Assembly (NCBI RefSeq): GCF_003418935.1
Contig: NZ_QVMT01000003.1
Span: forward strand, 1-64,000
Length of the DNA: 64,000 nucleotides
Direction: 5' to 3'
DNA from: Emticicia sp. C21
GTDB taxonomy: Bacteria; Bacteroidota; Bacteroidia; Cytophagales; Spirosomataceae
Notes under the pieces: generated by a model
What the model was told of the DNA's origin: nothing
Database searches by the model: none
The model's input: only the letters and a program-made list of their open reading frames with translations
Part shown: in pieces, positions 13,520 through 56,381 of the stretch
Layout: every line of letters starts with the position of its first letter
How positions within the stretch are numbered: the stretch's first letter is position 1
Made by a program: the position numbers and the translations under genes

Positions 13520-13708
13520 GATTATGCTAACAATTATAGATAAATGAGTAATGCAATATACAAAAGCCTGATTATAAGTATATAAATATTTTACTAGACA
13601 AAATCAAGTCTGAAGTGCAAAAGAACGCGTTTTGCGCATAAATACCTACAATTGACAGGCCTTTAACAGATTTTTAACACTAGCCAAACATAACCAACCC
13701 ATAATATT

Positions 13709-13745
13709 GACTTAACATTCACTTAATATTGGAGCAGTAGTTTTG
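13709..13745 (+). promoter_or_regulatory. Promoter of the TonB receptor gene, sharing a 14-bp box with the SusC promoter
   Basis: TAGTTTTG at 13738-13745 is a perfect TAnnTTTG -7 element, 29 bases upstream of ATG. GACTTAACATTCAC (13709-13722) begins 29 bases before it. The same box at the same distance precedes the SusC gene at 32771. The 15 bases between box and -7 differ between the two, so the shared parts look functional. Confidence 0.6.
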
Positions 13746-13773
13746 CACCGTTAAAAACGACACAAAAACCAAT

Positions 13774-20372: not shown

Positions 20373-20627
20373 GAGCTTATATAATTAATAGGTGTTTGAC
20401 GCCACTGGTGTTTAAAATATCTCTCTAAAAACTCTAGCCAACGCATTTTTGTAGGGATTTTAACCGAACAAATGTGCTTATACGTATAAAGAATCCGCAT
20501 TTGTGGCGTGATACGTATATAGATTGTAGAATTAATTCCACAGGCTGAAATTCTTTATTTAATACTGGCTTAACAGTGAGTTTACATGGGTTGTCGAAAT
20601 TACAGGTTCATTTAATAGCGGCAATCT

Positions 20628-26766: not shown

Positions 26767-26883
26767 GCAGTTGGTTGCTGGTATGCGTAATTAACGTTTA
26801 CGTGACATTTATGCTTCAATTACGGAGCATATTTTTTTTTCGGCCGAGATTTGAAGCATCGAAAAACAAAATTAAAGATTCAA

Positions 26884-27621
26884 ATGAACTCAAACATCAA
26901 GTCAAACCTGATTTTTCTCTGCCTCTTATTACACTCAGTTCTTTCGCAAGCACAAGACTTTCAGCTTCATTATGATTTTCGTCATACAGTTGACCCGAAG
27001 TTAAATCCAAAAAATTTCCCAATGATTAGCTTTCAGTATTTCAAGGAGATTGATACCCTTGGCACCGGCTCATTCCTATTCAAAGCACAGACCTTTTTAG
27101 ATGGTGAGAAAAACAATACTAATCAGGCTTTTTTACAAGTCTCACAGTCTCTACGTTTCTGGAAGCCTAAAGTTTATCTTTCGCTGAATTATAGCGGTGG
27201 ATTGGGCATTGCCGAACCATCATTTGGTTACTATATCCGCAATTCTTTTGGTGTGGGAGTTGCTTACCCTTTTCAATGGAAAGGTGCATGGATAAGTGCT
27301 GCTGCCTTATATCGCTACAACGCTTTTCAAAAAGGTAGTCACGACCCTCAATTTACCTTCTACTTTGGCAGAGGATTTCTGAACTATAAAATATTTGTAG
27401 AAGGGAGCATTGTTGCATGGACAGAAAACCGGAACCAAGGTATTGAATACACCAAAGGATTGACAGGTAAGAAATTCGCCTTTTTCGGCGACCCACAAAT
27501 CTGGTTTACTATTAAAAAGGGTTTGGCTGTTGGTTCCAGGGTGAGTTTATATTATCATCTTTTGACAGATAAGAATATTGTTCAGGCATATCCTACAGTT
27601 GGGACCAGGTATAAGTTTTGA
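26884..27621 (+). CDS. DUF5020 family outer-membrane protein (Tsx-like)
   Basis: 245 residues from ATG 26884 (MNSNIKSNLIFLCLLLHSVL, signal peptide ending SQAQDF); an earlier ATG at 26851 would put a basic leader in front of it. Starts with LHYDFRHTVDP and ends GTRYKF with a terminal aromatic residue, as beta-barrel proteins do. DUF5020 is related to the nucleoside channel Tsx. Its stop is 4 bases from the stop of the convergent FAD oxidase gene. A role as small-molecule channel for the phosphonate locus is possible but rests only on position. Confidence 0.75.
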   Translation: MNSNIKSNLIFLCLLLHSVLSQAQDFQLHYDFRHTVDPKLNPKNFPMISFQYFKEIDTLGTGSFLFKAQTFLDGEKNNTNQAFLQVSQSLRFWKPKVYLSLNYSGGLGIAEPSFGYYIRNSFGVGVAYPFQWKGAWISAAALYRYNAFQKGSHDPQFTFYFGRGFLNYKIFVEGSIVAWTENRNQGIEYTKGLTGKKFAFFGDPQIWFTIKKGLAVGSRVSLYYHLLTDKNIVQAYPTVGTRYKF

Positions 27622-27625
27622 ATAA

Positions 27626-28768
27626 TTACAACAACCCCTCAATCACACTCTCTGCATACCCGGCGCTGGTTGTCATACCCTTACCGCCTATGCCTGTACG
27701 GATATGAATATTCGGACTAATATCATGTTCGAAAATCTCATCGGGGTGTTGAGCGTAGAAACCGGCCCATGAGCGGGCAATTTTTCTGACCGGAAAACTC
27801 ATGATGCGTTCGGCTTCTTTCAGCATCAGGTCATTGATATACGTTTTGGTATCAAAGCCTAACTCATCTGTTCGGCCAACTGGGGCATATTCGTGCGAAT
27901 CACCGATGATGATAGAACCATCAATGGCTTGCTTAAACAAAATATGAATACCCCATTTCTTTAATTCTGAATAATGATCAGGCGTGGTAATATTTTTGAA
28001 AGAAGGGCATTGCTCAAATGACTCGTATCGACGAATAGATAGGCCTGTCAGGATATTCCCTTTGATAGAAACATTTGTCATGGGTACAGTCTGTAGCATC
28101 TGTAATTTGCTGACAATCATACCACTTTGTGCATATACTTCCGGAAAAAGTAGGTTAAATATATAGCCACTGCAAATAATAGCTTTATCAGCCGTGTATT
28201 GGTCGTTGCTACTTGTCATAAGTGTTACAAAGCCTGATGCTTCTGTACAGCCAATCACGCTGGTATTGGTCAGGTATGTCACCTGCAACTGTTCTTGTAG
28301 GTATTGGAGTATTCTATGGATAAGCAGGTTGGGTTCAACGCTTACCTCGCTTGGATAGTAGATAGCACCACGCGCATAATCTTCTTTCAACTCAGGATAT
28401 AAATCAAGGCATTGTCTTTTCGAAAGCAGAATGCACTCATAGCCCTGGCTTTGGTGTATATCATACAACTCATTAGCCAGTTGCCATTCTGTTTCGTCAG
28501 ATGCAAAATAGATTGAGCCGTTTTTTCTGACAGAAATATCGAATTGACTTTGAATGTCTTTATAAATATCAAGGCTTCGTCTACCAAAGTCAAACCATTT
28601 TCCGGCGGAACCTGAGGGAACGGCTTGCCCAAAGTTGCGGACTGTTGAACTGACTGGAAAATTATCTTTTTCGATAATTAATACTTTCTTTCCTTTTTTT
28701 GCCGCGTGAAAGGCATGAAAAGCCCCCATAATGCCGCTGCCAACTATAATTAGATCGTGATTTTTCAT
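27626..28768 (-). CDS. TIGR03364-type FAD-dependent aminophosphonate oxidase
   Basis: 380 residues, DAO-fold flavoenzyme with the dinucleotide motif GSGIMG at 10-15, an FAD-binding acidic residue at ~34 (LIIEKD) and a C-terminal TGIGGKGMTTSAG block. The start (SSTVRNFGQAVPSG) is characteristic of the TIGR03364 family. Known for the family: members are linked to phosphonate genes, and some are reported to oxidise 2-aminoethylphosphonate or its N-methyl derivative to phosphonoacetaldehyde. Here its ATG directly abuts the TAA of the phosphonatase-like gene, so the two are translationally coupled and probably act in sequence. Substrate choice within aminophosphonates cannot be read. Confidence 0.85.
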   Translation of the reverse strand: MKNHDLIIVGSGIMGAFHAFHAAKKGKKVLIIEKDNFPVSSTVRNFGQAVPSGSAGKWFDFGRRSLDIYKDIQSQFDISVRKNGSIYFASDETEWQLANELYDIHQSQGYECILLSKRQCLDLYPELKEDYARGAIYYPSEVSVEPNLLIHRILQYLQEQLQVTYLTNTSVIGCTEASGFVTLMTSSNDQYTADKAIICSGYIFNLLFPEVYAQSGMIVSKLQMLQTVPMTNVSIKGNILTGLSIRRYESFEQCPSFKNITTPDHYSELKKWGIHILFKQAIDGSIIIGDSHEYAPVGRTDELGFDTKTYINDLMLKEAERIMSFPVRKIARSWAGFYAQHPDEIFEHDISPNIHIRTGIGGKGMTTSAGYAESVIEGLL

Positions 28769-29509
28769 TTATGCTTCGCTAAGAACGCCTAAGTTAATAA
28801 TAATGTCTTTTAAATCTTTCAAAGAATCTAATAAGCCATCATTACGCAGAATAGTTAATTGTTGACGGGTATGTGTACCATTCACCACGCCTAAAGACAT
28901 ACGGCAACCGGCTCTTACACCTGACTTTAAATCTGATGGCGTATCGCCGATGTTAATCACCTCATAAGGGTCAGATACACCCATCAGTTTCATGGCTCTT
29001 TGAATCATGTAAGGTTCCGGGCGGCCTTTGGGTACTTCGTCACTGGCGATAGACACATCAATGACTGATTTTCCAGAAGTATTCACGTAATTATATTCCA
29101 GGCCATCAAGCCAGCCCAATTTTTCTAAAATGATATTGGTAACTACTCTATAAAAACCTGTAGTTAAAGCGATTCTGATATTATTCCTACGTAAGAAATC
29201 AAATATTTCCAGACAACCCTCAGTGGGCAATACCTCATTTTTGCGATAATGCTCTTCAAGAATCAGCCGGAAATAGTCATAAGAGTAGATTACATTTTCA
29301 TTGTACTCTGGATGATCCTTACCTGTTTTTTCTTCCCAAAGCATTTTAAACACCTCTACTTTCGAGTAGCCCTGTAAAGCTAAAATCCGTTCTTCCGATA
29401 CATTCAAACCTACATACTCACAAGCATTGGCAAAGCAGGTTTCAACTTCCTTTTTGTCCTGAACGGTAGTTCCGGCCATATCGAAAACAACTAATCTGAT
29501 TGGAAACAT
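28769..29509 (-). CDS. Phosphonatase-like HAD hydrolase (TIGR03351, PhnX-related)
   Basis: 246 residues from ATG 29509 (MFPIRLVVFDMAGTTVQD); an ATG at 29557 gives 16 extra basic residues. All signature features of the PhnX branch are visible: nucleophile Asp10 in DMAGT, cap-domain Lys50 (GYSK), which aligns with the Schiff-base lysine of phosphonatase, TTGF, Arg in KGRPEPYM in place of the usual HAD lysine, and GDTPSD. Expected reaction: phosphonoacetaldehyde + water to acetaldehyde + phosphate. First gene of the two-gene operon with the FAD oxidase, which would supply its substrate. Confidence 0.85.
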   Translation of the reverse strand: MFPIRLVVFDMAGTTVQDKKEVETCFANACEYVGLNVSEERILALQGYSKVEVFKMLWEEKTGKDHPEYNENVIYSYDYFRLILEEHYRKNEVLPTEGCLEIFDFLRRNNIRIALTTGFYRVVTNIILEKLGWLDGLEYNYVNTSGKSVIDVSIASDEVPKGRPEPYMIQRAMKLMGVSDPYEVINIGDTPSDLKSGVRAGCRMSLGVVNGTHTRQQLTILRNDGLLDSLKDLKDIIINLGVLSEA

Positions 29510-29980
29510 AAGGTATTGTTTTTTGACAAAAATAAGCCATCGTCTTCTATAAAACATATTATGTTTTTGTTAAGTCCAATCGCTAAAAGGCCAAAAAGGT
29601 GTGTAAAATACACTTAAAAAAAGCGTGTTTTTATATCTACATTTTTAAGAAATACGTCTCCCCAATTAATACTTTCATAGAAGTGTAGATCAGACATTTT
29701 ATAGTATAATTTATAAGATTTGGGGAAAATATTCCCCGTAAATGGATAAAAATCCACTTTTTGCCGCGTATGGAAATTATTGTAAAAATTAGAATATATA
29801 TATATTAAATGATTGATTATTAAGTATTTAATGAATTCTTCTTGATTCTGAGGCATTTTTTCAGGATGGAGGAATTAATTTTTTAACTTATATAGCAGGT
29901 ATTGATTTTAGCTAATTTATCAGATTTTAAACTTTATATGAGGTGCTACTGTCAAAACCACAAATAAACACGATACGATT
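29510..29980. other. Intergenic region upstream of divergent genes, one doubtful small ORF
   Basis: AT-rich gap between the phosphonatase-like gene and the glycine-zipper lipoprotein. An 80-codon minus-strand ORF (29856-29614) could be a gene remnant or an orphan small protein; it has no recognised family, signal or promoter box. The minus-strand sequence GGACTTAAC near 29575 resembles the shared TonB-promoter box only in its first half. Nothing else is supported. Confidence 0.3.
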
Positions 29981-30511
29981 ATGAAAAATGTAATAATTAT
30001 CACTTCACTTGTAGCAGCTACAATGGGGTGTACTAGCAAAGAAAATACTAATGAACAGATACAGGCAGCCAGAAAAGCTGCAATTGATTCAGTGAACAGA
30101 GTAGTTGAAATAGAACGTATGAAACAGGCAACTATTGACTCGATGAATCTTGTACAGGAACAACAATTGGCAATAGCAGAAGCTAAAAAAGCCAATACCT
30201 CAACCAGAACAAAAGAGACTGTAATTTATAGAGACGGGGGTTATTCTAATGCTAATGGTGGCGGTTATACGCCGGTATCATATACCTCAACAAAGCCTGC
30301 TAAGAAGAAAATGAATCCTGCTGTGAAAGGTGCTTTGATTGGTACAGGTGTAGGTGCTTTGGCCGGGGTAGCGATTGCAAAGGATAAAAAAGGTAAAGGT
30401 GCCTTGATTGGTGCCGCTGCCGGTGCAGCCGCTGGTGCCTTAGGTGGGGTAATTATTGATAAGCAGAAACAGAAAAAACAGGCACAGCAACAGCCCCAGA
30501 TTTATTACTAA
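29981..30511 (+). CDS. Glycine-zipper lipoprotein
   Basis: 176 residues. Lipobox near residue 17 (ATMGC), an amphipathic Gln/Ala/Lys coiled-coil-like stretch (about 24-70), a Gly/Tyr/Ser-rich linker, then a glycine zipper at about 112-160 (GALIGTGVGALAGVAIA, GAAAGAAAGALGGVIID) and a Gln-rich tail. Proteins of this type insert in or span the outer membrane or stabilise the envelope. Transcribed alone, with its own terminator. No visible tie to the phosphonate genes around it. Confidence 0.7.
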   Translation: MKNVIIITSLVAATMGCTSKENTNEQIQAARKAAIDSVNRVVEIERMKQATIDSMNLVQEQQLAIAEAKKANTSTRTKETVIYRDGGYSNANGGGYTPVSYTSTKPAKKKMNPAVKGALIGTGVGALAGVAIAKDKKGKGALIGAAAGAAAGALGGVIIDKQKQKKQAQQQPQIYY

Positions 30512-30535
30512 TTTCACAACCAGACTATATATTCA

Positions 30536-30577
30536 CCCTCCTGAAAGAGTCTTAGGACTTTTCTCAGGAGGGTTTTC
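30536..30577 (+). terminator. Terminator of the glycine-zipper lipoprotein gene
   Basis: CCCTCCTGA pairs with TCAGGAGGG, with an inner partial stem (AAAGAGTC / GGACTTTT), followed by TTTTCTTATTTTTTT. Confidence 0.8.
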
Positions 30578-30744
30578 TTATTTTTTTAGTAAACAACTAT
30601 TAGAGGGATTCCCGAAAAGTAGTTGAAAATTATGAACGATAACTAATAAACGTAAATAAAGTATTTGGTTATATCAAGTAATAAATACAGTGCAAAAGGG
30701 TTGTGTATATTCAAGAGTTATATCTTAGTAATGAAGAAATAAAC

Positions 30745-31542
30745 TCATACAATGTCTTGTATGAGTTTTGACCATTTCTCAATATTGTCTTCAAAAACAC
30801 CACGGTAGTAGTTAATCAAGTTGTGGTATTTTTCCTGAAACTCAGGTGTCATTCTTCTGTTAAAACTCTTATCTCTAAAAACACATTCAAAATTATTAAT
30901 ACTGCCAATCAGGTATTTATAATCAGTGATGAGTACCGAAGGGGCATTATTTCTTAGGGCTGGTTTAATCACCTCTTCATGCATAGTCAAGGCAGTTTCG
31001 TTAGCGGCCAATCCCTTCTCAAACCATTTATTTTCTAAGCATGTCCCTTCAATCGGATAAAAATTTCCATTAAAAAGGCTTTTATTCGGTTTTTTAAGTC
31101 CAGGTGAGGAGTAAAACAGAAAGTTCTCAGGTTCTTCAATTTTATACTGATAATTTTTAGTATTCATGTGAGATAGCCATTCTTCAAGGTTTAAAGGAGC
31201 TTCTTCTGAAAAATTAAAATCAAAAATCAAGTCCTGATTACCTTGCTGAACAATGGGTGCTACATGATAACCCCAACGGATGTATCCTTTGGGGGTCATA
31301 TGATTAGGGTCCTGAATCAGGAAGACTTCATTTGAAGTCTCTGAATAGCGGCATGGAGCGAAGACCCATATTTTTTTATGCGGAATATTATGCTTTTTTA
31401 AAAGCAAAGAACTCAGGTGAGCATTACAATGACAGTTACCTTGCAGATAACGGTAAGATGGATAGAGTTGATGTTTTATTTCTTTAAACACTCTATCTAT
31501 TAAGGGTTGAATCAAAGTTTTTGATTCAAATACATTCAGCAT
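30745..31542 (-). CDS. Protein-glutaminase-like papain-fold protein
   Basis: 265 residues from ATG 31542; a TTG at 31566 would extend it by eight. Residues ~35-140 resemble the protein-glutaminase (Gln_deamidase_2-type) domain: GNCHCNAH with candidate nucleophile Cys, WGYHVAPI with candidate His, and LIFDFNF with candidate Asp. Such enzymes deamidate glutamine side chains in proteins. Unlike the secreted Chryseobacterium enzyme, no signal peptide or propeptide is visible, so it would act inside the cell or leave by another route. The C-terminal ~100 residues are unassigned. Similarity judged from short motifs only. Confidence 0.5.
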   Translation of the reverse strand: MLNVFESKTLIQPLIDRVFKEIKHQLYPSYRYLQGNCHCNAHLSSLLLKKHNIPHKKIWVFAPCRYSETSNEVFLIQDPNHMTPKGYIRWGYHVAPIVQQGNQDLIFDFNFSEEAPLNLEEWLSHMNTKNYQYKIEEPENFLFYSSPGLKKPNKSLFNGNFYPIEGTCLENKWFEKGLAANETALTMHEEVIKPALRNNAPSVLITDYKYLIGSINNFECVFRDKSFNRRMTPEFQEKYHNLINYYRGVFEDNIEKWSKLIQDIV

Positions 31543-31566
31543 TTTGTTGAGTTGATTAGAGTTCAA

Positions 31567-32770
31567 AACTAATAGTTTAAAGCCTATTATTATGTTATGT
31601 TTTGGTAAAGGAATTGTAACGCAGAAGTTAAAAGAAGACTCTTTCTTCCGCCTGAATAGAAGAGGTAAAATAGACCTGTAATTGAAGATGAAAAAAAGAT
31701 TGTCAACGAGAGCAATATCGTATCAGCACAGCTACTGAAATGTTGCCTGAAACCCTAAAAATCTTTTTAAGCCTTATTATTTCTATATTACAAAAAGATA
31801 TCTACTTTATAAGAAGAACACATGAATTTCTGCCTCCTGCTCTTTTCAAACCTTACCCTTAATTCACAAACGTTAATAGATTTTTTTTACCATTTATACA
31901 CAGCATAGAAACTATTTCTACTACAGATTTATTGTTTACAAAGATACTTTATTTCTACTAAAAAGAAGAATTTCATCAATACTATTTAATGGGTTTTGTA
32001 AGACTAAAAAGCAACCTTCTCCACCTTTCATTAAAAGGTATATTTAGTTGGTAAAAAGACTACTTTTCTCAGAATTTTTATTTCACTAACCACTCTAAAA
32101 ACATGATAAAATGGAATGTTAAGAAAAGCTTAAAAAAAGATTAAGAAAGAAATTTGTTTTACCAGAAAACTCCTTAAATTGTTGCTCTATACCATACAAA
32201 CCTTTTGTACCTATTATCTATCTAATTAAAACACCTACTTTATGACAAAAACACACGCGGCCTTTTGTTCTCTATCCTGATTCTTCTTTTCAAACCTTAT
32301 CATTGTTGATAAGCATCTATTAATTGTGATGCTTTACAATTTACCTGGAAAAGAAATCTATTTGCGTTGCTGATTCACCGGCTATCAAGCTACCTGAAAC
32401 GTATGATGATTAGAGTATTACCAACACACCTTTAAACTTTTCTTCAAACCTCAAAAAAAACACCATACACACTACCTTTTCTGTTACCAGTAAGGTCTGG
32501 TTATGCCTTTGCTTGTTAGCGGTGCATTTATGCACTATGTCTTGCATGAGTAAAAGTACTTAATTCTTAAAAAATGCCTGTTTTTTCATGTTTTTGCACA
32601 AAAAAGCCTGAAAAAACAGATAATTCCATCATTTACTTAACAATAGCTTAATTCCGACTTAACATTCACAGAATGTAAGAAGCGTACTTTTGCATGCTGA
32701 AAATCATGCTGGCTTATTATAAATTTTTAACGACTAAATCTTTCAAAAATCAAACAAAAAACAAAAGTTT
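31567..32770 (+). promoter_or_regulatory. 1.2-kb gene-free region ending in the SusC promoter
   Basis: No credible ORF on either strand. The last 115 bases hold the promoter: box GACTTAACATTCAC at 32656-32669 and -7 element TACTTTTG at 32685-32692, leaving a leader of roughly 70-75 bases before ATG 32771. Upstream (31567-32655) I see only AT-rich sequence with scattered short repeats of T-rich and CTTTT motifs; a small RNA or a decayed gene cannot be excluded. Confidence 0.5.
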
Positions 32771-35700
32771 ATGAAAAAACAACTCCTATTATGCATGGTA
32801 GTTTTTCTGATTAGCCTCTTTATCAGCGAAGCAACTTATGCGCAGACTTCAGTAAGCGGGAAGGTATCTGCTGCCAATGGCGAGGGCATCCCCGGCGTAA
32901 GCGTGTTGGTAAAAGGCAGCAATCAGGGTACCAATTCTGATGCCAGCGGAAATTTCAGATTAAGTAATGTTAGTTCAAGTTCGGTTCTTGTGTTCTCTGC
33001 TATCGGTTTCGTAACAGAAGAACGTACAGTAGGTAACCAGACTACTATAAATATTACCTTGAACGAAGATAACAAAACCTTAAACGAGGTAGTAGTAACA
33101 GCTTTGGGTATTAAAAAAGACATTCGCCGTATCGGGGTGGCTATCCAGTCAATTGATGGAGCTTCTACCGTTAAAGCACGTGAGCCAAACGCCATTAATG
33201 CGTTGGCAGGTAAAGTAGCCGGTTTGACAATCGGAGCACAACCTGAAATGTTGCGTAAACCAAACATTTCGTTACGGGGTAATACCGAGATTTTATATGT
33301 AGTGGATGGTGTACCTATCAACTCTGATACCTGGAACATCAGTCCGGATGATATTGAAACTTATTCAGTGTTAAAAGGAGCTTCTGCTTCGGCGCTTTAT
33401 GGTTTCCGCGGTAAAAATGGTGCTATCCTGATTACCACCAAACGTGGTTCTAAAGATAAACGTGGATTCTCGGTTGAAGTAAACTCTTCAACTATGTTAG
33501 ATAAAGGTTTTTATGCGATACCTAAAACACAAGACTTGTATGGCCCGGGTGACCACGGTCGTTATGCCTTTGTTGACGGTAAAGGTGGTGGATTAAACGA
33601 CGGTGACTACGATGGTGGCTGGGGCCCTAAATTTGAGGGTCAGTTGATTCCTCAATACGATAGCCCGGTTGACCCGGTAACAGGTGTAAGAGCAGGTACT
33701 CCATGGATTGCCCGTGGTAAAGACAACTTAGCCCGTTTCCTGCAAACAGGTATCTTATCAACTAATAATATTGCTGTTTCAGCCACAGGAGAAAAATATA
33801 ACTTGCGTTTCTCTACTTCACAGATTTCACAACGTGGTATTGTTCCGAATACAAAATTAAATATCAGCAACTTTAACATTGCTGCTGATTATAAATTCTC
33901 TGACAAACTTTCGTTCACTTCGAACTTACAGTATAACAGACAATACACGCCAAATATCCCTGATATTAACTATGGCCCTAACTCAATCATCTATAATATG
34001 ACACTTTGGGCCGGTGCTGACTGGGATGTTGACGATATGCGTAACTACTGGCAACCGGGTAAAGAAGGAATCCAACAGATTTATGCTGAGTACCAACGTT
34101 ACAACAATCCATACTTCATGAGTTATGAATGGTTGAGAGGTCACCAGAAATCTGATATTATCGGCCAGGCCGCTTTGACTTATAAATTTACAGACTATCT
34201 GGAAGCTACACTTCGCTCGCAAATTACTACCTGGAACTTGCTACGTACAGAGAAAATGCCTTATTCAGCAGGTTCTTATGGGCGTGATGAGCGTCGTGGA
34301 GACTACCGTGAAGACCGTCGTAACCTGTTTGAAAACAACACCGACATCTTATTGAAATTTGACAAGGACATAGTAAGAGGTTTTAACGCAAAAATCTGGG
34401 CAGGGGGTAATATCCGTACTTTTGAGTATAGCTCACAATATGGTTCTACTGATTATCTGAACGTACCGGGCTTATACAACTTCAGCAACTCGGCGAACCC
34501 TGTTCGCGGCGCTAATTTTAACTCAGCTATGCGTGTAAATTCAGGATATTATTCTGCTGACTTTACCATTAAGAATTTTGTAACTATCGGAACAACCGGT
34601 CGTGTGGATAAATTGTCAACTTTACCATCTGGTAACAATACATTCTTTTATCCATCAGTTTCTGCTTCAACAGTTTTATCTGATTACATTAATCTTCCAT
34701 CAGTTATCTCGTTCTTCAAGTTAAGAGGTTCGTATGCTAACGTGAAAGACGGCTTAACTCGCTCTACTATCGGTACAACCCCTAGCTTAGGCGATGGTAA
34801 CCCACTAGGGTATGGCGATCAATATTATTCTCCATACGATGGCCCTGCTTATAGCAACGCTGCGGTTTATTCTACGCCTTTCTCTTACAATAACCAGCCA
34901 TCGGCTTACTATACAGGTACATTGAACAACCCTGGCCTGAACCCAAGTTCAACTTCACAAACCGAGGTGGGTCTTGATTTCAGAGTATTGCAAAACCGTA
35001 TCGGCTTGGATGTAACTTACTTCATCTCTGACGAAGGCCCTAGAATCTTCTCTTTACCAATTTCTTCTACTACCGGTTATACAGCCGCTTTGGTAAACGG
35101 TATTAAAACACAGAAAAAAGGTTGGGAAGTTGCCTTAACTGGCTCGCCAATCAAAAACCCTGATGGTTTAAACTGGGATGTAGTGGTTAACTACTCTACT
35201 TATCAGGAAAGACTAACAGAGATTTATCCGGGTGTTGCAAATCTGAATACTTTCTTCAAGGTAGGTGACCGTCTGGATAAATTCTATGGAACTGCCTTTG
35301 CCAGAACTCCAGACGGACAAATTATCAATGATGATTCAGGTCGCCCTGTTACTACTCCTGTGGCTCAGTTCTTAGGTTATATAAATCCTAAATTTGTATT
35401 TGGTATCAATAACAAATTCAACTATAAAAACCTGAGCTTCAGCTTCCAGTTTGATGGTCGTATCGGTGGTGTAATCTCTAACTATATCCAACGTCAGACA
35501 TATCGCGGTGGTCGCCATATCGGTACCACTGAAGGGATAATGGGTATTGCACGCGAACAGGATTATAAAGGTGTAAAAGCTTATGTGGGCGAAGGAGTAC
35601 AGATTTCAAATGGAGTACCTATTAAATACGATGCAGATGGTAAAATTACCAATTATGCTGAATTGCAATACAAACCAAATGAAACCAAACAATTTGTACA

Positions 35701-35974
35701 AGACTACGTGAGCCGTTACTATAATACAGATGATGGTAACTTAATGAACCGTTCTTTCGCTATGTTGCGTGAGGTTGTAATTGGTTATTCGTTACCTGAA
35801 AGATGGTTTGGCGGAGTTGTAAAAAATGCCTCGGTATCGTTGGTAGGTAGAAACCTATTGTATTTTGCAGAGAAGAAAGATATTGATTTGAACCAGTATA
35901 TCAACGATGGTGGCTCAGGTCTGCAAACACCATCTACCAGAAGATACGGTATCAACCTGAACTTTACTTTCTAA
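32771..35974 (+). CDS. SusC/RagA-family TonB-dependent receptor
   Basis: 1067 residues: signal peptide to ~25 (ending TYAQT), carboxypeptidase-regulatory-like domain (about 27-100, GKVSAANGEGIPGVSVLVKG), the SusC signature NEVVVTALGIKKDIRR, plug domain (about 118-225, with LRGNTEILYVVDGVPI and ASALYGFRGKNG), and a 22-stranded barrel ending INLNFTF. Forms the pore half of an outer-membrane SusCD transporter with the next gene. Usual cargo of the family is glycan or peptide fragments, but here the downstream genes encode phosphonate and phosphoester enzymes. Confidence 0.92.
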   Translation: MKKQLLLCMVVFLISLFISEATYAQTSVSGKVSAANGEGIPGVSVLVKGSNQGTNSDASGNFRLSNVSSSSVLVFSAIGFVTEERTVGNQTTINITLNEDNKTLNEVVVTALGIKKDIRRIGVAIQSIDGASTVKAREPNAINALAGKVAGLTIGAQPEMLRKPNISLRGNTEILYVVDGVPINSDTWNISPDDIETYSVLKGASASALYGFRGKNGAILITTKRGSKDKRGFSVEVNSSTMLDKGFYAIPKTQDLYGPGDHGRYAFVDGKGGGLNDGDYDGGWGPKFEGQLIPQYDSPVDPVTGVRAGTPWIARGKDNLARFLQTGILSTNNIAVSATGEKYNLRFSTSQISQRGIVPNTKLNISNFNIAADYKFSDKLSFTSNLQYNRQYTPNIPDINYGPNSIIYNMTLWAGADWDVDDMRNYWQPGKEGIQQIYAEYQRYNNPYFMSYEWLRGHQKSDIIGQAALTYKFTDYLEATLRSQITTWNLLRTEKMPYSAGSYGRDERRGDYREDRRNLFENNTDILLKFDKDIVRGFNAKIWAGGNIRTFEYSSQYGSTDYLNVPGLYNFSNSANPVRGANFNSAMRVNSGYYSADFTIKNFVTIGTTGRVDKLSTLPSGNNTFFYPSVSASTVLSDYINLPSVISFFKLRGSYANVKDGLTRSTIGTTPSLGDGNPLGYGDQYYSPYDGPAYSNAAVYSTPFSYNNQPSAYYTGTLNNPGLNPSSTSQTEVGLDFRVLQNRIGLDVTYFISDEGPRIFSLPISSTTGYTAALVNGIKTQKKGWEVALTGSPIKNPDGLNWDVVVNYSTYQERLTEIYPGVANLNTFFKVGDRLDKFYGTAFARTPDGQIINDDSGRPVTTPVAQFLGYINPKFVFGINNKFNYKNLSFSFQFDGRIGGVISNYIQRQTYRGGRHIGTTEGIMGIAREQDYKGVKAYVGEGVQISNGVPIKYDADGKITNYAELQYKPNETKQFVQDYVSRYYNTDDGNLMNRSFAMLREVVIGYSLPERWFGGVVKNASVSLVGRNLLYFAEKKDIDLNQYINDGGSGLQTPSTRRYGINLNFTF

Positions 35975-36033
35975 TCTCAATTGATTGCTCATTGAGCTTT
36001 ATTTTAACATCATTCAGATAAAAATATTAAAAA

Positions 36034-37626
36034 ATGAAGATACATAAATTATTCGCAGGAGCTTTCGCAGTATTAGCTGTTAGCCTTAGCAGTTGCGAAA
36101 AATCGTTTGAAGACCTTGAAAAAGATCCGAACCGCCCGGTAAACGTACCTGCCTCCCTTGTATTGCAAGGCGTTGAAGCCGATTTAGCTAACAATACAGG
36201 TCGCCCATTTAGTGCAGAAATGCGTTGGAACCAGTTCTATGCTTCTAACTATAATTATTATGCTAACAATGAATATACATGGACAGCGACTCCTAACCAC
36301 TACAATACGCTTAAAAACGTAGTAAAAATGGAAGAAGAAGCTAAACGTGCAGGGTTAGCAGAAGTTAACGGTTACACAGCGCTTGGGAAGTTTTTCCGTG
36401 CGTATTTTATTGACGAAATGTCGAAACGTGTAGGTGACCTGCCAGTATCTGAAGCCCTAAAAGGTATTGCGAACACTACTCCTAAATATGATACCCAAAA
36501 AGCAGTTTACGTACAGATTTTGAAATGGTTGGATGAGGCGAATGATAACCTGGCTACTTTGATTGCCCAGGGACAATCTGTACAAGGTGACTTCTACTTT
36601 GGTGGAGACCTTCGTAAATGGCAAAAAGCCGTAAATGCTTTCAAATTGAGAGTTTTGATTTCATTAAGTAAAAAGGAAGGTGAAAGCGAGTTAAATGTGA
36701 AGGCGCGTTTTGCTGAAATATTAGGCAATCCAACTAAATATCCTTTGTTTGCAGGTCTGGAAGATAACTTAGAGTTTAAATACAATAACTTTAATAAATA
36801 TCCGTCGAATCCTGATAACTTTGGTTTTGATGCGACTCGCCAGAACATGGCAAAAACTTATGTAGGTTTGCTATCTGGTCTGAATGACCCACGTGTAATG
36901 GTTACTACAGAACCGGCAGGTGGAGAATTGAAAGCTGGTAAATTGCCATCAGATTATACAGCGTATGTAGGGGCAAGCTCGGCAGAAGATTTAGCTGATA
37001 TGAGTGATAAAGCCGGAAGAAACAATGGTGCTGGTTTTGCTCCGGGTTTGTATTCGTTCCAGAACCGTTTCCGTTACTACCGTAATTATACAGCCGAGAA
37101 TACTTTCATTGTAGGTTATCCTGAAATGTGTTTCAACATAGCAGAGGGCTTACACAGAAACTGGGCAACAGGTGATGGCGAAGCATGGTATAAAAAAGGT
37201 ATTCAGGCATCTATGAGTTTCTATGGAATCGTAAATGGCACTAATACCATGACTTACTCAAAAACTGGGGGTAGAGAAGCAGCTGATCTTGCAACCTTCA
37301 CTATTAACTTTAATTTCGATACTTATTATGCGCAGGATATGGTGAAGTATGACGGTAAAACTACAAAAGGTTTACAACAGATTATCAGCCAGAAATATGC
37401 AGCATTCTTTATGAACTCGGGTATGGAAGCCTATTTTAACTGGAGACGTACGGGCTTCCCTAAATTTGAAACAGGGGTAGGTAATGGTAACTCAAACCGT
37501 ATCGCAGTTCGTTGGCAATACCCGCTTTCAGAGCGTACTACTAACACCAAAAATTATAATGATGCGATTAACAGCCAGTATGGCGGTAAAGACGACATCA
37601 ACGATTCAGTTTGGATAATGAAGTAG
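36034..37626 (+). CDS. SusD/RagB-family nutrient-binding outer-membrane lipoprotein
   Basis: 530 residues with a lipobox (SLSSC, about residue 22). The mature start FEDLEKDPNRPVNVPASLVLQG and the late IAEGLHRNW segment identify the SusD-like nutrient-binding lipoprotein subfamily, an alpha-helical TPR-like protein that lids the SusC barrel. It starts 59 bases after the SusC gene, the normal order. The ligand cannot be predicted from sequence. Confidence 0.9.
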   Translation: MKIHKLFAGAFAVLAVSLSSCEKSFEDLEKDPNRPVNVPASLVLQGVEADLANNTGRPFSAEMRWNQFYASNYNYYANNEYTWTATPNHYNTLKNVVKMEEEAKRAGLAEVNGYTALGKFFRAYFIDEMSKRVGDLPVSEALKGIANTTPKYDTQKAVYVQILKWLDEANDNLATLIAQGQSVQGDFYFGGDLRKWQKAVNAFKLRVLISLSKKEGESELNVKARFAEILGNPTKYPLFAGLEDNLEFKYNNFNKYPSNPDNFGFDATRQNMAKTYVGLLSGLNDPRVMVTTEPAGGELKAGKLPSDYTAYVGASSAEDLADMSDKAGRNNGAGFAPGLYSFQNRFRYYRNYTAENTFIVGYPEMCFNIAEGLHRNWATGDGEAWYKKGIQASMSFYGIVNGTNTMTYSKTGGREAADLATFTINFNFDTYYAQDMVKYDGKTTKGLQQIISQKYAAFFMNSGMEAYFNWRRTGFPKFETGVGNGNSNRIAVRWQYPLSERTTNTKNYNDAINSQYGGKDDINDSVWIMK

Positions 37627-37652
37627 TTTTTGTACATCATAGGTAAGAGTTG

Positions 37653-37685
37653 AAAGTAGCGGAGCGGTGTTCCGCTACTTTTTAA
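37653..37685 (+). terminator. Terminator-like hairpin between SusD and the PhnZ-like gene
   Basis: AAAGTAGCGGA / TCCGCTACTTT, perfect 11-bp stem with a 7-base loop and a T run. It lies 26 bases before the ATG at 37711 and no new -7 box follows it, so it may act as a partial terminator that lowers expression of the catabolic genes relative to susCD. Confidence 0.75.
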
Positions 37686-37710
37686 TTCAAGGTTTAACCC
37701 AATATTTATT

Positions 37711-38277
37711 ATGGCAGATATTCCCAAAGTGATTGATGAGATTCGTGCGATATTCCTCTCGCAAGGCGATGAGCAATATTATGGCGAACCTGTAAGCCAG
37801 TTTGAACATGCCGCTCAATCTGCTATTCTGGCCGAGAAATCAGGCTTTGATCAAGGGGTGCAGATAGCGGCTTTTTTGCATGACATCGGGCACCTGTTAC
37901 CGGCGGCATCAGAAGAAGAACTCATGGCTAACTATGGAAGAAAAGACCACGAGGGCGTGGCAGCAGACTGGTTGAGAGACAGGGGTTTTTCTGAAAGAAT
38001 AGCGGTTCTGGTAGAAAACCACGTAAACGCCAAGCGTTATTTGTGCTATGCTAACCCGGCTTATTATAAAAATCTATCTGAGGCCAGCAAACAAACCCTG
38101 GAGTTTCAGGGTGGAAAGATGAAAAAAGAAGAAGCCGAAAGATTCGAACAGAATCCTTATTTTGATGTTATCATCAGAATGCGCAGATGGGATGAAGCCG
38201 CTAAAGTAGAACACCAGCAATTACCTGATTTAGGTCATTTCCTGAAAATCTGTGAAGATTATTTAAGGACTCATTAA
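37711..38277 (+). CDS. phnZ: PhnZ-type diiron HD oxygenase
   Basis: 188 residues. All six metal ligands of PhnZ can be placed: His33, His57-Asp58 (HDIGH), His80, His104 and Asp161. The Tyr23 and Glu26 of QYYGEPVSQFEH match the Tyr/Glu pair that distinguishes phosphonate oxygenases from myo-inositol oxygenase and ordinary HD phosphohydrolases. AKRYLCY...LSEASKQTLEFQGGKM is also PhnZ-like. Known reaction of PhnZ: O2-dependent cleavage of (R)-2-amino-1-hydroxyethylphosphonate to glycine and phosphate; the relative TmpB acts on the trimethyl analogue. No PhnY/TmpA-type hydroxylase lies in the window. Exact substrate open. Confidence 0.85.
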   Translation: MADIPKVIDEIRAIFLSQGDEQYYGEPVSQFEHAAQSAILAEKSGFDQGVQIAAFLHDIGHLLPAASEEELMANYGRKDHEGVAADWLRDRGFSERIAVLVENHVNAKRYLCYANPAYYKNLSEASKQTLEFQGGKMKKEEAERFEQNPYFDVIIRMRRWDEAAKVEHQQLPDLGHFLKICEDYLRTH

Positions 38278-38341
38278 GTGTCTCAGATTATCAGTTTGTT
38301 TATTATTTCCTCGCACAATATCATAAAAACATCTAACTACA

Positions 38342-39409
38342 ATGAAGAAAATACTCGTATTACTTTTATTGGTTATTGAGACATTTGCCCAGAATAAAAC
38401 TGAAAATGTATTTATCATCACTACCGATGGCTTTCGCTGGCAGGAAGTTTTTGGTGGCATGGACTCTGAGTTATTGAAGAAAAAAGAGTTCGTGAGAAAT
38501 GAAGACCGTCTGAAAAAGACTTTCGGAGCTGATGAGGCAGAAGAAAGAAGGAAAAAACTATTGCCGTTTTTCTGGAATACCATTGCTAAAGAAGGTCAGC
38601 TATATGGTAACCGTTGGCAGAATAATAAAGTAAATGTTATGAATCCTTATTGGTTTTCATACCCGGGTTATAACGAGATTCTTACAGGATACGCAGATGA
38701 TAAAGTGAATTCAAATGATAAGAAACTGAATGAGAACATTACAGTATTGGAGTTTCTGAACCAACAAAAAGGCCTAAAAGGTAAAGTGGCTGCCTATTCT
38801 ACGTGGGATGTTTTTCCGTACATCATTAACGAGCAGCGCAGTGGTGTTCCGGTTAATTCTGGGAAAGAATTAGTGGAGGGCAAAACGACTGATAAAGAGG
38901 CCATGCTGAACGAAATTCAGTCTAACTACCCAAGCTTGGCCAGCGACCGCCACGATTTTATTACTTATTATCTGGCAAAGGAATACATCAAGAAAAACGA
39001 TCCTAAGGTGTTCTTTTTATCGTTTGATGAAACCGATGAGTTTGCGCATGAAGCTAAATACGACGAGTATCTTTTTGCTGCCAATACAGTAGATAAATTC
39101 ATAGGTGACCTTTGGAATTATTGCCAGAGCAATCCAAAGTACAAAGATAAAACCACATTCATCATTACTACAGACCACGGTAGAGGCGATAAAAACAAAT
39201 CGCAATGGACAAGCCATGGGCAGCGTGTATCTGATTGTTATCAGATCTGGTTTGCGGTTATCGGGCCAGATACCCCTGCTACAGGAGAGATGAAAACAGA
39301 TGTTCAATTATTCCAGAATCAGATAGCAAAAACAGCTGCGAAATTCCTGGGTTTCGACTTTCAGAATGGAAAGGAGATAGGAAAAGAGGTTCCGACGGTG
39401 ATGAAATAA
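38342..39409 (+). CDS. Exported alkaline-phosphatase-superfamily phosphoesterase/phosphonate hydrolase
   Basis: 355 residues with a signal peptide (to about residue 16, FAQN). Two-metal ligands of the superfamily can be placed: Asp29 (TTDGFRW), nucleophile Ser106 (FSYPGYNEILTG), Asp232 and His236 (DETDEFAH), Asp278-His279 (TTDHGRGD) and His292 (SHGQ). Relatives include nucleotide pyrophosphatases, phosphodiesterases and phosphonoacetate hydrolase. Located 64 bases after the PhnZ-like gene; a periplasmic role in releasing phosphonates or phosphate from larger molecules fits, but hydrolysis of phosphonoacetate cannot be ruled out. Confidence 0.8.
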   Translation: MKKILVLLLLVIETFAQNKTENVFIITTDGFRWQEVFGGMDSELLKKKEFVRNEDRLKKTFGADEAEERRKKLLPFFWNTIAKEGQLYGNRWQNNKVNVMNPYWFSYPGYNEILTGYADDKVNSNDKKLNENITVLEFLNQQKGLKGKVAAYSTWDVFPYIINEQRSGVPVNSGKELVEGKTTDKEAMLNEIQSNYPSLASDRHDFITYYLAKEYIKKNDPKVFFLSFDETDEFAHEAKYDEYLFAANTVDKFIGDLWNYCQSNPKYKDKTTFIITTDHGRGDKNKSQWTSHGQRVSDCYQIWFAVIGPDTPATGEMKTDVQLFQNQIAKTAAKFLGFDFQNGKEIGKEVPTVMK

Positions 39410-40195: not shown

Positions 40196-41386
40196 TTAAT
40201 TTCTTGTCAGAGGCCATACAAGCGATAAGGCCAAGCGTTTGACTAATTGAGGTACAACATCAAGGCGGCGGAATGTGGTGCGCATGGTGCGGCGTTTAGA
40301 TGCATTAAACAAGCTTTCAATCTCTCTTAAGAAGATGAAACTACCATGGCTATACCAGCTCTGAAAGTCACGGCTTATGTCTTTATGTGTAGGCAGATAA
40401 TTCATAAATTCGGTTAAATCAAAGCTTGCCCCTGTAATTCCGGCTCCGGCTCTTTTAGCATCTATGGCATTACAGGCTTGCTCGTAGTGTTTAGGTACAG
40501 GAATCATCAGTGTCGGCTTACCTAAATACATGGCCTCACATACTGACTCAAAACCTGCGGTAGTTACTAATCCACGGCAATTCTGCATCATTTCTAAAAA
40601 CTTTTTACCGTTAATTTTATGAAAATGCAGGTTGGGTGAATAGTGGAAAGTATCGTTGTATGTCGGGTTATCCCAGAAACAATGTACTTCCGTATCAGGG
40701 TTTTTATCGTGCCATGCCATTATCTGCTCAGCCAATGAATGTTGCGTTACATAAGCCAGCAGATAATTGTGGACATTGGTACTTAACCTTGATAGCTCTG
40801 ACCGAAGCAAGGGTGGAATGGCAAAGATTTTCTGGTTTTTAGCGTCGTCGAATGGTGTAAACGAGAGTGCCAGTTTTTTTGTTGAACCTAAGGCTGTAAT
40901 GCGCGTGTTAGTGTTGACTAAAACTTTATCTAACCAATGATTTTTTGGGTGGTGAAAATCGGGATGGAGCAATAAATATTGGTGTGCAATACAAACCATT
41001 GGTATTTTAGGGCGAAACATAAACTGGTGAAGTCCGCCTAAAACATCATAAAAATTAATGATAACATCAGGCTTCAGTGCTGATGTATGGATTTGGATTT
41101 TTTTAAGGCTGCGAATATATGCCGGCAGGTTAAGAAATGTATGGGTAATGGTTTTTGGTATATCCAGTGCCTTTGTTTTCTGGCAATAGGCCAGATAAGG
41201 GCTTGAAAAAGGAATAATTGTATTTTTGAAGTTTTCGCTGAAAAAAGTGGGTATTTCTCTTCCGGTAGCAGTTCCTACTAATGCACCTGCTACAGTGTGG
41301 CCATTGTTTTCCAATATCTCGGTCAACGCAATGGCTTGGGTCAGATGCCCACGTCCCTCTCCTTGTATAATCAATAAAAACCTCAT
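40196..41386 (-). CDS. GT-B fold glycosyltransferase family protein
   Basis: 396 residues. The N-terminus MRFLLIIQGEGRGHLTQAIA and the late TTAGFESVCEAMYLGKPTLM segment are the acceptor- and UDP-sugar-binding motifs of the MurG/UGT-like GT-B group. No signal peptide; probably a peripheral membrane enzyme of envelope glycolipid synthesis. Its ATG overlaps the stop of the LpxH-like gene by 4 bases (ATGA), a conserved pairing in Bacteroidota that suggests a shared lipid-sugar pathway. Acceptor unknown. The C-terminal ~50 residues are basic and hydrophobic. Confidence 0.75.
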   Translation of the reverse strand: MRFLLIIQGEGRGHLTQAIALTEILENNGHTVAGALVGTATGREIPTFFSENFKNTIIPFSSPYLAYCQKTKALDIPKTITHTFLNLPAYIRSLKKIQIHTSALKPDVIINFYDVLGGLHQFMFRPKIPMVCIAHQYLLLHPDFHHPKNHWLDKVLVNTNTRITALGSTKKLALSFTPFDDAKNQKIFAIPPLLRSELSRLSTNVHNYLLAYVTQHSLAEQIMAWHDKNPDTEVHCFWDNPTYNDTFHYSPNLHFHKINGKKFLEMMQNCRGLVTTAGFESVCEAMYLGKPTLMIPVPKHYEQACNAIDAKRAGAGITGASFDLTEFMNYLPTHKDISRDFQSWYSHGSFIFLREIESLFNASKRRTMRTTFRRLDVVPQLVKRLALSLVWPLTRN

Positions 41387-42225
41387 AGAGTGGCTGCTAT
41401 TCTTGGTAAAACAAATCTTTCTTCCTTGCTGAGTTCCTCATTCATCTCAACTTCTTCTGGGTCTTCCTCTGTCTTGCAATCGCTTACAGAATAGTAGACC
41501 AGACTCCAGTTTCCATCAAAATCTTCTACCAGTGCTGACATGGTTTCAACCCAGTCGCCCGAGTTCAGATACATTATTCCATCTATTTCTCTGATAGCCG
41601 GTTGGTGAATATGCCCGCAGATAATACCGTCACAGTCTTTTGCTTTGGCTAGTTCAGCTAGTTTTTCCTCATAATCGTTAATATAGCTGACGGCCATTTT
41701 TACAGCCTGCTTTACCTGTTGTGAAAGCGAATAATAAGGTAGCCCTCTCCACTCACGATATTTATTATAATTTTTATTCAGCCAGAGTAAGAAAGTATAG
41801 CCTAAATCGCCAAGATGCGCCAGCCATTTCATGTTGGTAGTAACACTATCGAAAACATCGCCATGTGTTACATAGAAGCGTTTATCTCCCGATTTCAGGA
41901 TATAATCTCTTCGTATCTGAAATTGTCGACCTATAACCAATGGGAGAATCTGGTCAAGAAAATCGTCATGATTACCGCGTAGATAAATAACCTTGGTATC
42001 ATGTTTATCCATCTTTTTTAGCACAACTCTGAAAAACGCAGTATGTTTTTTCTTCCAGTTACCGTATTTTTTTAGTTGCCAGCCGTCAATAATATCTCCA
42101 TTAAGGATAAGCCGTTCACAGCGGTATTGTTTAAGAAATTCAGTTACCTCCTTCGCTTTGCAGCCACTTGTTCCTAAGTGAAGGTCTGAAAGCACGATTG
42201 TCCGAAAATGTTTGCCTTTATTCAT
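41383..42225 (-). CDS. LpxH-like UDP-2,3-diacylglucosamine diphosphatase family phosphoesterase
   Basis: 280 residues, calcineurin-like metallophosphoesterase with all motifs: SDLHLGT, NGDIIDGW, RGNHDD, THGD and GHIHQPA. Larger than E. coli LpxH, as usual for the Bacteroidota branch. Known family role: cleavage of UDP-2,3-diacylglucosamine to lipid X in lipid A synthesis. Because it is coupled to a glycosyltransferase and has an acidic C-terminal extension (EEDPEEVEMNEELSKEE), a different nucleotide-linked lipid is possible. Confidence 0.8.
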   Translation of the reverse strand: MNKGKHFRTIVLSDLHLGTSGCKAKEVTEFLKQYRCERLILNGDIIDGWQLKKYGNWKKKHTAFFRVVLKKMDKHDTKVIYLRGNHDDFLDQILPLVIGRQFQIRRDYILKSGDKRFYVTHGDVFDSVTTNMKWLAHLGDLGYTFLLWLNKNYNKYREWRGLPYYSLSQQVKQAVKMAVSYINDYEEKLAELAKAKDCDGIICGHIHQPAIREIDGIMYLNSGDWVETMSALVEDFDGNWSLVYYSVSDCKTEEDPEEVEMNEELSKEERFVLPRIAATL

Positions 42226-56306: not shown

Positions 56307-56381
56307 TGGTGTTCCCGAAGGGATTCGAACCCCCATCATCAGAACCGGAATCTGACATTCTATCCATTGAACTACGGGAAC
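56307..56381 (-). tRNA. tRNA-Arg (anticodon CCG), CCA end encoded
   Basis: On the minus strand a complete cloverleaf: acceptor GTTCCCG / CGGGAAC, D arm TTCAATGGATAGAA, anticodon stem CAGA / TCTG around TTCCGGT (anticodon CCG, reads CGG), T arm GGGGGTTCGAATCCC, discriminator A (56310) and encoded CCA (56309-56307). 72 bases plus CCA. Confidence 0.93.

Follow-up and report, generated by a model that had tools for sequence, protein, structure and literature searches.

What does an outer-membrane SusC/SusD (SusCD) pair do among enzymes of phosphonate breakdown? Such pairs are usually linked to glycans (PMC8115612). In Emticicia sp. C21 one lies on contig NZ_QVMT01000003.1, within the stretch of 64,000 nucleotides analyzed here (positions 1 to 64,000, the window), in a gene set that also holds a TIGR03364/PbfD-type FAD-dependent aminophosphonate oxidase (FadOx), a PhnX-like HAD hydrolase, a PhnZ-type HD-domain oxygenase and an exported hydrolase of the alkaline phosphatase (AlkP) superfamily (Table 1). 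An earlier note on this DNA had placed an organophosphonate uptake locus between positions 26884 and 39409. All genes that it named were recovered there, but the interval leaves out DUF5690, a membrane protein that also belongs to the set, and the repeat before it. We judge it probable that the whole is a phosphate-starvation locus, which imports and mineralizes aminophosphonates through SusCD, exported hydrolases, DUF5690 and two branches that cleave the C-P bond. This confidence was lowered slightly because two exchanges described below, of the permease and of PbfA, each rest on one genus.

Both SusC (TIGR04056) and SusD (PF12771) score above the cut-offs of their models, and the two genes are adjacent. 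In a first pass over 24 related loci SusD was found in 18, the six without it being three proteobacterial loci (L026, L031, L032) and three on short or cut contigs (L024, L027, L028). The PhnZ model TIGR03276 matched 90 of the 390 Cytophagales genomes searched (41 above the cut-off) and 32 of 395 Bacteroidota genomes at E<=0.001 (17 strongly, the rest weakly). One PhnZ-containing stretch, 20 kb long at most and with a reach of about 10 kb, was taken from each of 89 positive genomes, the own genome being excluded, and 11 further stretches came from strong matches in other Bacteroidota orders, giving 100 PhnZ loci in all. SusC is present in 74 of the 89 loci (83%) and SusD in 73, or in 70 of 79 each for stretches longer than 18 kb; in the other orders of the phylum SusD occurs in 10 of 11. 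Kinship between the genomes is ignored in these counts; a count by genus is therefore given as well, with SusD in at least one locus for 22 of 32 genera. The earlier note had made its case hinge on such conservation beside the enzymes in relatives, and its interpretation is supported by these comparisons. Gene order is variable: AlkP stands on either side of PhnZ, FadOx and HAD are divergent or collinear, and DUF5690 occupies several slots, which suggests selection rather than inheritance of one frozen block. The 86 SusC open reading frames (ORFs) of more than 700 amino acids in the 100 regions fall into two main lineages with 42% identity, of 62 and 16 members, and every member of both has an adjacent SusD. 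Both lineages are present in the window's own family, where L099, L101 and L102 carry the lower-scoring type; that of L102 adjoins another SusCD pair.

Could the pair belong to a polysaccharide utilization locus that lies beside the phosphonate genes by coincidence? The usual association of SusCD with glycans (PMC8115612) would favor this, as would an alginate lyase (L063), a GH1 and a GH25 protein, each found once among 53 unassigned neighbor ORFs. However, no sugar enzyme recurs among the 25 of 86 families listed for these neighbors, and SusD is retained in most genera despite the shuffled gene order. The own genome holds at least 37 SusC genes (42 of 105 candidates scored), and with 37, 42 or 105 taken as the number of SusC genes, the chance that a 20-kb stretch holds one was estimated at 12-31%, compared with the observed 83%. 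Chance adjacency was rejected on these figures and the count by genus, and a coincidental polysaccharide locus is very improbable.

In a comparison set of 38 FadOx stretches apart from PhnZ, 34 of them from 33 PhnZ-negative genomes and 4 from PhnZ-positive ones whose FadOx copy is elsewhere, SusC occurs in 14 and SusD in 7, one of the latter (L184) belonging to a PhnZ-positive genome. The difference in SusD from the PhnZ loci (73/89) has p = 1.4e-11, kinship ignored, and SusCD is thus tied more closely to PhnZ than to the FadOx/HAD pair. This is a caveat on the link of SusCD to phosphonate enzymes drawn in the earlier note. The counts for the same 89 stretches are 63 for HAD, 56 for FadOx, 54 for DUF5690, 30 for the AlkP protein and 25 for a PF04185-type hydrolase. 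These are undercounts; in the genome of L075, for instance, some 13 kb separate FadOx from PhnZ, more than the stretch covers.

The locus might instead be a general organic-phosphorus island, in which the cargo of SusCD would be ordinary phosphoesters (phospholipid headgroups, glycerophosphodiesters or teichoic-acid-like chains) and the pair would simply share its place and regulation with the phosphonate enzymes. The phosphate utilization systems (PUS) of Flavobacterium have been interpreted in this way (PMC8115612). A phospholipase C type occurs in 8 of the 89 PhnZ loci (the one tested, in L106, is above the TIGR03396 cut-off), and the 53 unassigned neighbors include 8 metallophosphoesterases, 3 GDPD proteins, one phosphate transporter and one PI-PLC. 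A PlcP-like metallophosphoesterase and a glycosyltransferase come after the locus in the window. Plain phosphoester uptake would not lead one to expect SusD to follow PhnZ so much more closely than PhnZ-less FadOx, and we regard a general island as rather unlikely. On the phosphonate reading, SusC/SusD would capture and import an aminophosphonate, more likely as an ester or larger conjugate than as a free small molecule, with a phosphonolipid headgroup or a phosphonoglycan as candidate conjugates.

Exported phosphoesterases would then trim the conjugate to the free aminophosphonate: the AlkP-superfamily enzyme in the window, and a phospholipase C, GDPD or metallophosphoesterase in some relatives. 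The earlier note's exported AlkP-superfamily enzyme is borne out by its domain matches and Sec-type leader. D29, S106, D232, D278, H279 and H292 are invariant in 28 aligned proteins and H236 nearly so; by inference from the superfamily, we take the invariant residues to form two metal sites and the serine nucleophile. A sequence search against the PDB gave two matches, both at chance level, and the AlphaFold2 model (pLDDT 92.5) matches AlkP-superfamily folds, namely LtaS/LtaP, sulfatases, NPP and the phosphonate monoester hydrolase 2vqr (rank 49), without singling out a substrate. The leader and the position of the gene, on the same strand and downstream of SusCD and PhnZ, would also suit a different division of labor, in which exported hydrolases act at the surface to release the phosphonate, and the small free aminophosphonate itself is what SusCD takes in. 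On inspection, however, the leader lacks a lipobox cysteine, so that surface anchoring is not indicated. Moreover, small solutes usually pass the outer membrane through porins and would have little need of SusCD. Surface release followed by uptake of the small molecule is unlikely in our view.

Import of a conjugate across the outer membrane leaves the inner membrane to be crossed, and DUF5690 is the probable missing importer, which would carry the aminophosphonate into the cytoplasm. Its AlphaFold2 model is all-helical (pLDDT 91), and the top fold match in the PDB is G6PT/SLC37A4 (E 6.7e-8, TM 0.67), other proteins of the major facilitator superfamily (MFS) matching as well (NorA and sialin at similar E, GlpT 1pw4 at rank 31). 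Against GlpT-type permeases hhalign gave a probability of 0.3%, and a sequence-profile search of the PDB returned 0 matches; a sequence relationship between DUF5690 and GlpT is thus not supported, and their kinship is by fold only. DUF5690 is present in 74 of the 90 PhnZ genomes and lies near FadOx, HAD or PhnZ in relatives. The strongest argument for its role as importer is its replacement by a GlpT-type permease in one genus (g31). In seven g31 loci an MFS protein lies a median of 264 bases from PhnZ, the one tested (L074) matches GlpT 1pw4 at 2.3e-24 and falls under the cut-offs of the PgtP/GlpT models, and DUF5690 has no match in any of the seven genomes. The demonstrated 2AEP permease AepP, of the organophosphate:phosphate antiporter family (PMC8316502), belongs to the same transporter family as the permease of these seven loci; it shares the fold class of DUF5690, but no sequence similarity between the two was detected. 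No mention of DUF5690 was found in the open-access papers searched. The own genome carries a second copy (L201), with neither phosphonate genes nor SusCD nearby.

In the cytoplasm, the first C-P-cleaving branch would be formed by FadOx and HAD. PbfD1, a TIGR03364 enzyme, oxidizes N-methyl-AEP and AEP (2-aminoethylphosphonate), and oxidation of N-methyl-AEP to phosphonoacetaldehyde is known for other TIGR03364/PbfD members (PMC10590968). By analogy with these PbfD enzymes, the branch would act on AEP and N-methyl-AEP, FadOx turning either into phosphonoacetaldehyde and the PhnX-like HAD cleaving this product with release of phosphate. The presence of a TIGR03364-type oxidase, as first proposed, is confirmed by its score; the FAD-binding glycines are conserved in 99 of 99 locus proteins, and FadOx occurs in 89 of the 90 PhnZ genomes. 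The HAD stays under the cut-offs of TIGR03351, its best family, and of the PhnX model TIGR01422 (93.9 bits against 220), and it may work like TIGR03351 members though not filed as one. Within its GYSK motif, the lysine lines up with one in PhnX (2iof) and is retained in 94 of 94 locus HADs; the DxAGT motif, this cap lysine and the GDxxxD motif are retained in 91-94 of the 94. The cap lysine is presumably the Schiff-base residue of the phosphonatase mechanism. The ORF probably starts at 29509, judging from the 246-residue HAD of L009, which makes the lysine residue 50. Of the phosphonatase-like HAD with Lys50 in the earlier note, the lysine thus stands and the family assignment falls short.

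PhnZ would provide the second branch, oxidizing imported (R)-1-hydroxy-2-aminoethylphosphonate (R-HAEP) to glycine and phosphate. The window protein is 87-89% identical to its two nearest named relatives, both Emticicia. As the earlier note had read from its sequence, it is a PhnZ-type oxygenase by its TIGR03276 score and holds all six ligands and the Tyr/Glu pair: H33, H57, D58, H80, H104 and D161, together with Y23, E26 and K108, match PhnZ 4mlm. The first six we take to be the metal ligands, each present in 96 or 97 of the 97 PhnZ proteins of the loci, and the last three to lie on the substrate side. A PhyH relative was found in 0 of the 100 PhnZ loci with a single reference (L031), and the own genome contains no clear PhnY*-type hydroxylase, the best match having 28% identity over 114 residues (PF05721 itself gave 5 matches). 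In proteobacterial relatives a PhyH-type partner of PhnZ is present: in a gammaproteobacterial metagenome-assembled genome the two are fused in one protein (L026:9941-11383), and in L031 they are adjacent.

The exchange with PbfA also bears on the substrate. PbfA has been proven experimentally to act on R-HAEP (PMC8154272). Of the 38 stretches with FadOx away from PhnZ, 19 contain a PbfA gene, all of these being from genus g5 and having it within a row of HAD, FadOx and DUF5690. Two of the g5 proteins scored 730.6 and 734 bits with the model NF049939 (cut-off 525), and a genome search placed all 19 g5 genomes above this cut-off, as well as others, to a total of 29 of 390. The g5 stretches (L163-L182) are PhnZ-less HAD-FadOx-PbfA-DUF5690 loci in 19 of 20 cases, with SusD in 4 of 20 (L170, L172, L173, L176). 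Conversely, PbfA was found in 0 of the 89 PhnZ loci, one of which holds a distant aminotransferase (L130, 69 bits). Mutual exclusion across whole genomes was rejected, since 8 of the 29 PbfA genomes carry both enzymes, at separate places, and 21 lack PhnZ; the exclusion holds locally only. The same local exclusion is seen in phnWX and phnWAY clusters (PMC8154272). With no hydroxylase partner for PhnZ and PbfA in the PhnZ-less g5 loci, the window PhnZ most likely handles R-HAEP that is imported as such.

Another 1-hydroxyphosphonate, such as hydroxymethylphosphonate or trimethylated HAEP, would be the substrate if PhnZ resembled TmpB or the hydroxymethylphosphonate dioxygenase PhnZ1 in function, and both models do match (NF049941 with 146.6 bits and NF052439 with 134.3 bits). 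However, these scores are far under the cut-offs of 300, PhnZ itself is the nearest of the solved chains (1.3e-41, against 4.3e-33 for TmpB), and PbfA replaces PhnZ in the g5 loci, all of which makes such a substrate improbable. R-HAEP remains the favored one.

Other routes can be set aside for this genome, which is 99.94% complete. The absence of the classical partners from the window, reported in the earlier note, extends to the whole genome for PhnW, PhnJ and a clear PhnY*-type hydroxylase; for PhnCDE it applies to the window. Profile searches gave no match to PhnJ, none to PhnW above the cut-off (5 weak matches) and none to PEP mutase above the cut-off (one weak match), and the C-P lyase route, the PhnW route and phosphonate biosynthesis, respectively, were rejected on these grounds.

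A response to phosphate starvation may be reflected in Pho-box-like 11-bp repeats before several genes (Table 1), which may be PhoB boxes. The three repeats before SusC were compared across four Emticicia-type loci, the first two being invariant and the third nearly so. They are followed by a TAnnTTTG element, which we take to be the Bacteroidota -7 consensus. In the window the plain repeat pattern has 13 matches where 5.0 are expected, a number reached in 1 of 100 shuffles and thus mildly above chance. Across the fetched regions, good repeat pairs lie upstream of 12 of 83 linked SusC genes, 11 of 92 HADs and 10 of 747 other genes, and further before FadOx (2/105), DUF5690 (3/91), SusD (0/92), PhnZ (0/98) and AlkP (0/40); by position, they precede 26 of 283 operon heads and 7 of 406 internal genes. 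The composite of repeat and TAnnTTTG has 21 matches in 2.61 Mb, none of them more than 250 bases from the start of a gene, compared with 1 in a shuffle: 14 before HADs (12 in g5), 2 before SusC, 1 before AlkP and 4 before unassigned genes. In the window the composite scan listed four sites, before SusC, HAD, a TonB-dependent receptor and a Gln_deamidase_2 gene, and did not list the repeat before DUF5690. The SusC match is not independent, because the motif was first read from that gene.

The interpretation holds at the level of comparative genomics, and several observations weigh against the proposed system. SusD is out of reach in 16 of the 89 PhnZ loci, 9 of them full-length stretches, the partner genes accompany PhnZ only in part (FadOx 56, HAD 63, DUF5690 54 and AlkP 30 of 89), and the mostly SusD-less FadOx loci imply that the enzymes can do without SusD. 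Sugar enzymes, as mentioned, do occur singly among the neighbors. The HAD misses the TIGR03351 cut-off (174.7 against 218.9 bits). DUF5690 has no profile similarity to GlpT-type permeases or to any PDB chain, lies almost 6 kb from FadOx in the window and is also present in 20 genomes without FadOx; conversely, 16 PhnZ genomes lack it, with a GlpT-type permease in the stretch of 7 and neither protein in that of the other 9. Both exchanges rest on a single genus, g31 for the permease and g5 for PbfA, and PbfA and PhnZ share a genome in 8 cases. Finally, 12 of the 21 composite promoter matches belong to HADs of one genus.

Table 1. Features of the window discussed in the text
Feature	Position	Strand	Evidence
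11-bp repeats before DUF5690, Pho-box-like (TTTAATA-N4-CTTAACA-N4-GTTTACA)	20558-20586	+	Window pattern scan
DUF5690, probable phosphonate permease of the inner membrane	20628-21923	+	PF18943 476 bits; MFS fold of predicted model
TIGR03364 (PbfD-type) FAD-dependent aminophosphonate oxidase (FadOx)	27626-28768	-	TIGR03364 365 bits, cut-off 285.1
PhnX-like HAD hydrolase	28769-29557	-	Best family TIGR03351, 174.7 bits, under cut-off 218.9; probable true start 29509
Pho-box-like repeat, upstream of probable HAD start	29557-29574	-	With TATTTTTG at 29534-29527
Three 11-bp repeats CTTAACA/CTTAATT/CTTAACA, upstream of SusC	32636-32664	+	Comparison of loci
TACTTTTG, Bacteroidota-type -7 element (presumed)	32685-32692	+	20 bp past last SusC repeat
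SusC TonB-dependent outer-membrane channel	32771-35974	+	TIGR04056 464.6 bits, cut-off 368.25
SusD-like_2 lipoprotein	36034-37626	+	PF12771 210 bits; lipobox-like SLSSC (inspection)
PhnZ-type HD-domain di-iron oxygenase	37711-38277	+	TIGR03276 220.3 bits, cut-off 214.6; ligands
Exported AlkP-superfamily phosphoesterase	38342-39409	+	PF01663/PF01676; Sec-type leader (inspection)
Glycosyltransferase, probable lipid-remodeling partner, neighboring module	40196-41386	-	PF13528/PF04101; near locus in relatives
PlcP-like metallophosphoesterase, neighboring module	41383-42225	-	PF12850/PF00149

In Flavobacterium, SusCD pairs induced by low phosphate co-locate with phosphonate-degrading enzymes (PMC8115612). 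SusCD beside phosphonate genes was thus already known, and in this respect the pair of the window, which the earlier note had thought unusual, has a precedent. The PUS clusters resemble the window locus in joining SusCD to phosphoesterases and phosphonate enzymes; they differ in that expression was shown for them, whereas the window locus is known from its genes, with Pho-box-like repeats, and in that the available PUS text gives the phosphonate enzymes one sentence and names none (PMC8115612). The set of PhnZ, PbfD, PhnX-like HAD and DUF5690, and its spread, was not found in the open-access text searched, including the available part of PMC8115612. This PhnZ-centered set extends the PUS idea and joins it to known phosphonate chemistry. 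From the hydrolytic PbfD-PhnX pathway, which likewise has a TIGR03364-type oxidase adjoining a PhnX-type HAD and lacks PhnW (PMC10590968), the window set differs in its union with SusCD, PhnZ and DUF5690 and in a HAD under the PhnX and PhnX-like cut-offs. With the oxidative PhnY*-PhnZ pathway (4mlm, 4n71) it shares a PhnZ with all ligands and substrate-side residues, but not the PhyH-type hydroxylase. The phnWX and phnWAY clusters also hold phnZ without phnY* and never together with pbfA in one cluster (PMC8154272); unlike these, the window locus has SusCD and no PhnW above the cut-off.

Aminophosphonates belong to a large pool of reduced phosphorus in nature (PMC8316502), and plant-associated Bacteroidetes lack common organic-phosphorus transporters (PMC8115612). 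A conserved set of SusCD, permease and enzymes makes phosphonate uptake in Bacteroidota directly testable, gives DUF5690 a candidate function, and gives SusCD, a family often taken as a sign of glycan use in genome annotation, a role outside sugars. Little is known of R-HAEP in nature (PMC8154272), and the two branches together predict that it is a regular environmental phosphonate. More tentatively, and with less than even confidence, a class of SusCD dedicated to phosphonate conjugates might be widespread in Bacteroidota, with DUF5690 as a new family of phosphonate permeases and PhnZ and PbfA as interchangeable R-HAEP modules. If true, this would be the phosphonate counterpart of the polysaccharide utilization locus, with conjugates coming, for example, from amoebae or predatory bacteria.

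Further phosphorus-related genes surround these loci. The metallophosphoesterase and glycosyltransferase that follow the locus in the window likely correspond, by analogy, to the PlcP/glycosyltransferase pair of lipid remodeling under phosphate starvation (PMC8115612, PMC4796936); the PlcP-like protein has no NCBIfam model above its cut-off, and both genes are near PhnZ in 6 of the 89 other loci. Calcineurin-type phosphoesterases occur in 21 of the 89, and XRE-cupin regulators in 22 of the 89 and in 26 of the 38 stretches of the FadOx comparison set. In L143 and L144 a PhoB-like regulator follows AlkP, with scores (207 and 203 bits) under the cut-offs. An alkaline phosphatase and a PhnO-like acetyltransferase (65.9 bits with the PhnO model, cut-off 142) are found in 6 of the 89 loci each, in one genus; the acetyltransferase lies inside the phosphonate locus at L071:10308-10748 and in five sister loci (g6, small-genome relatives).

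Elsewhere in the window, a TonB-dependent receptor starting at 13774 (13700-16590) is preceded by CTTAACA-type repeats, one pair of them free of mismatches, and by TAnnTTTG, and is possibly part of another phosphate-starvation operon; the two genes after it have no Pfam match. The Gln_deamidase_2 (PF18626) protein at 30745-31566 adjoins SusC in Emticicia-type loci, in opposite orientation in L012, L014, L018 and L022, and a DUF5020 protein at 26851-27621, convergent with FadOx, is present in the close relatives L009 and L010 too. NCBIfam named neither of these two nor a 587-residue protein. A tRNA at 56310-56381 is the sole match of an Rfam scan of the window.

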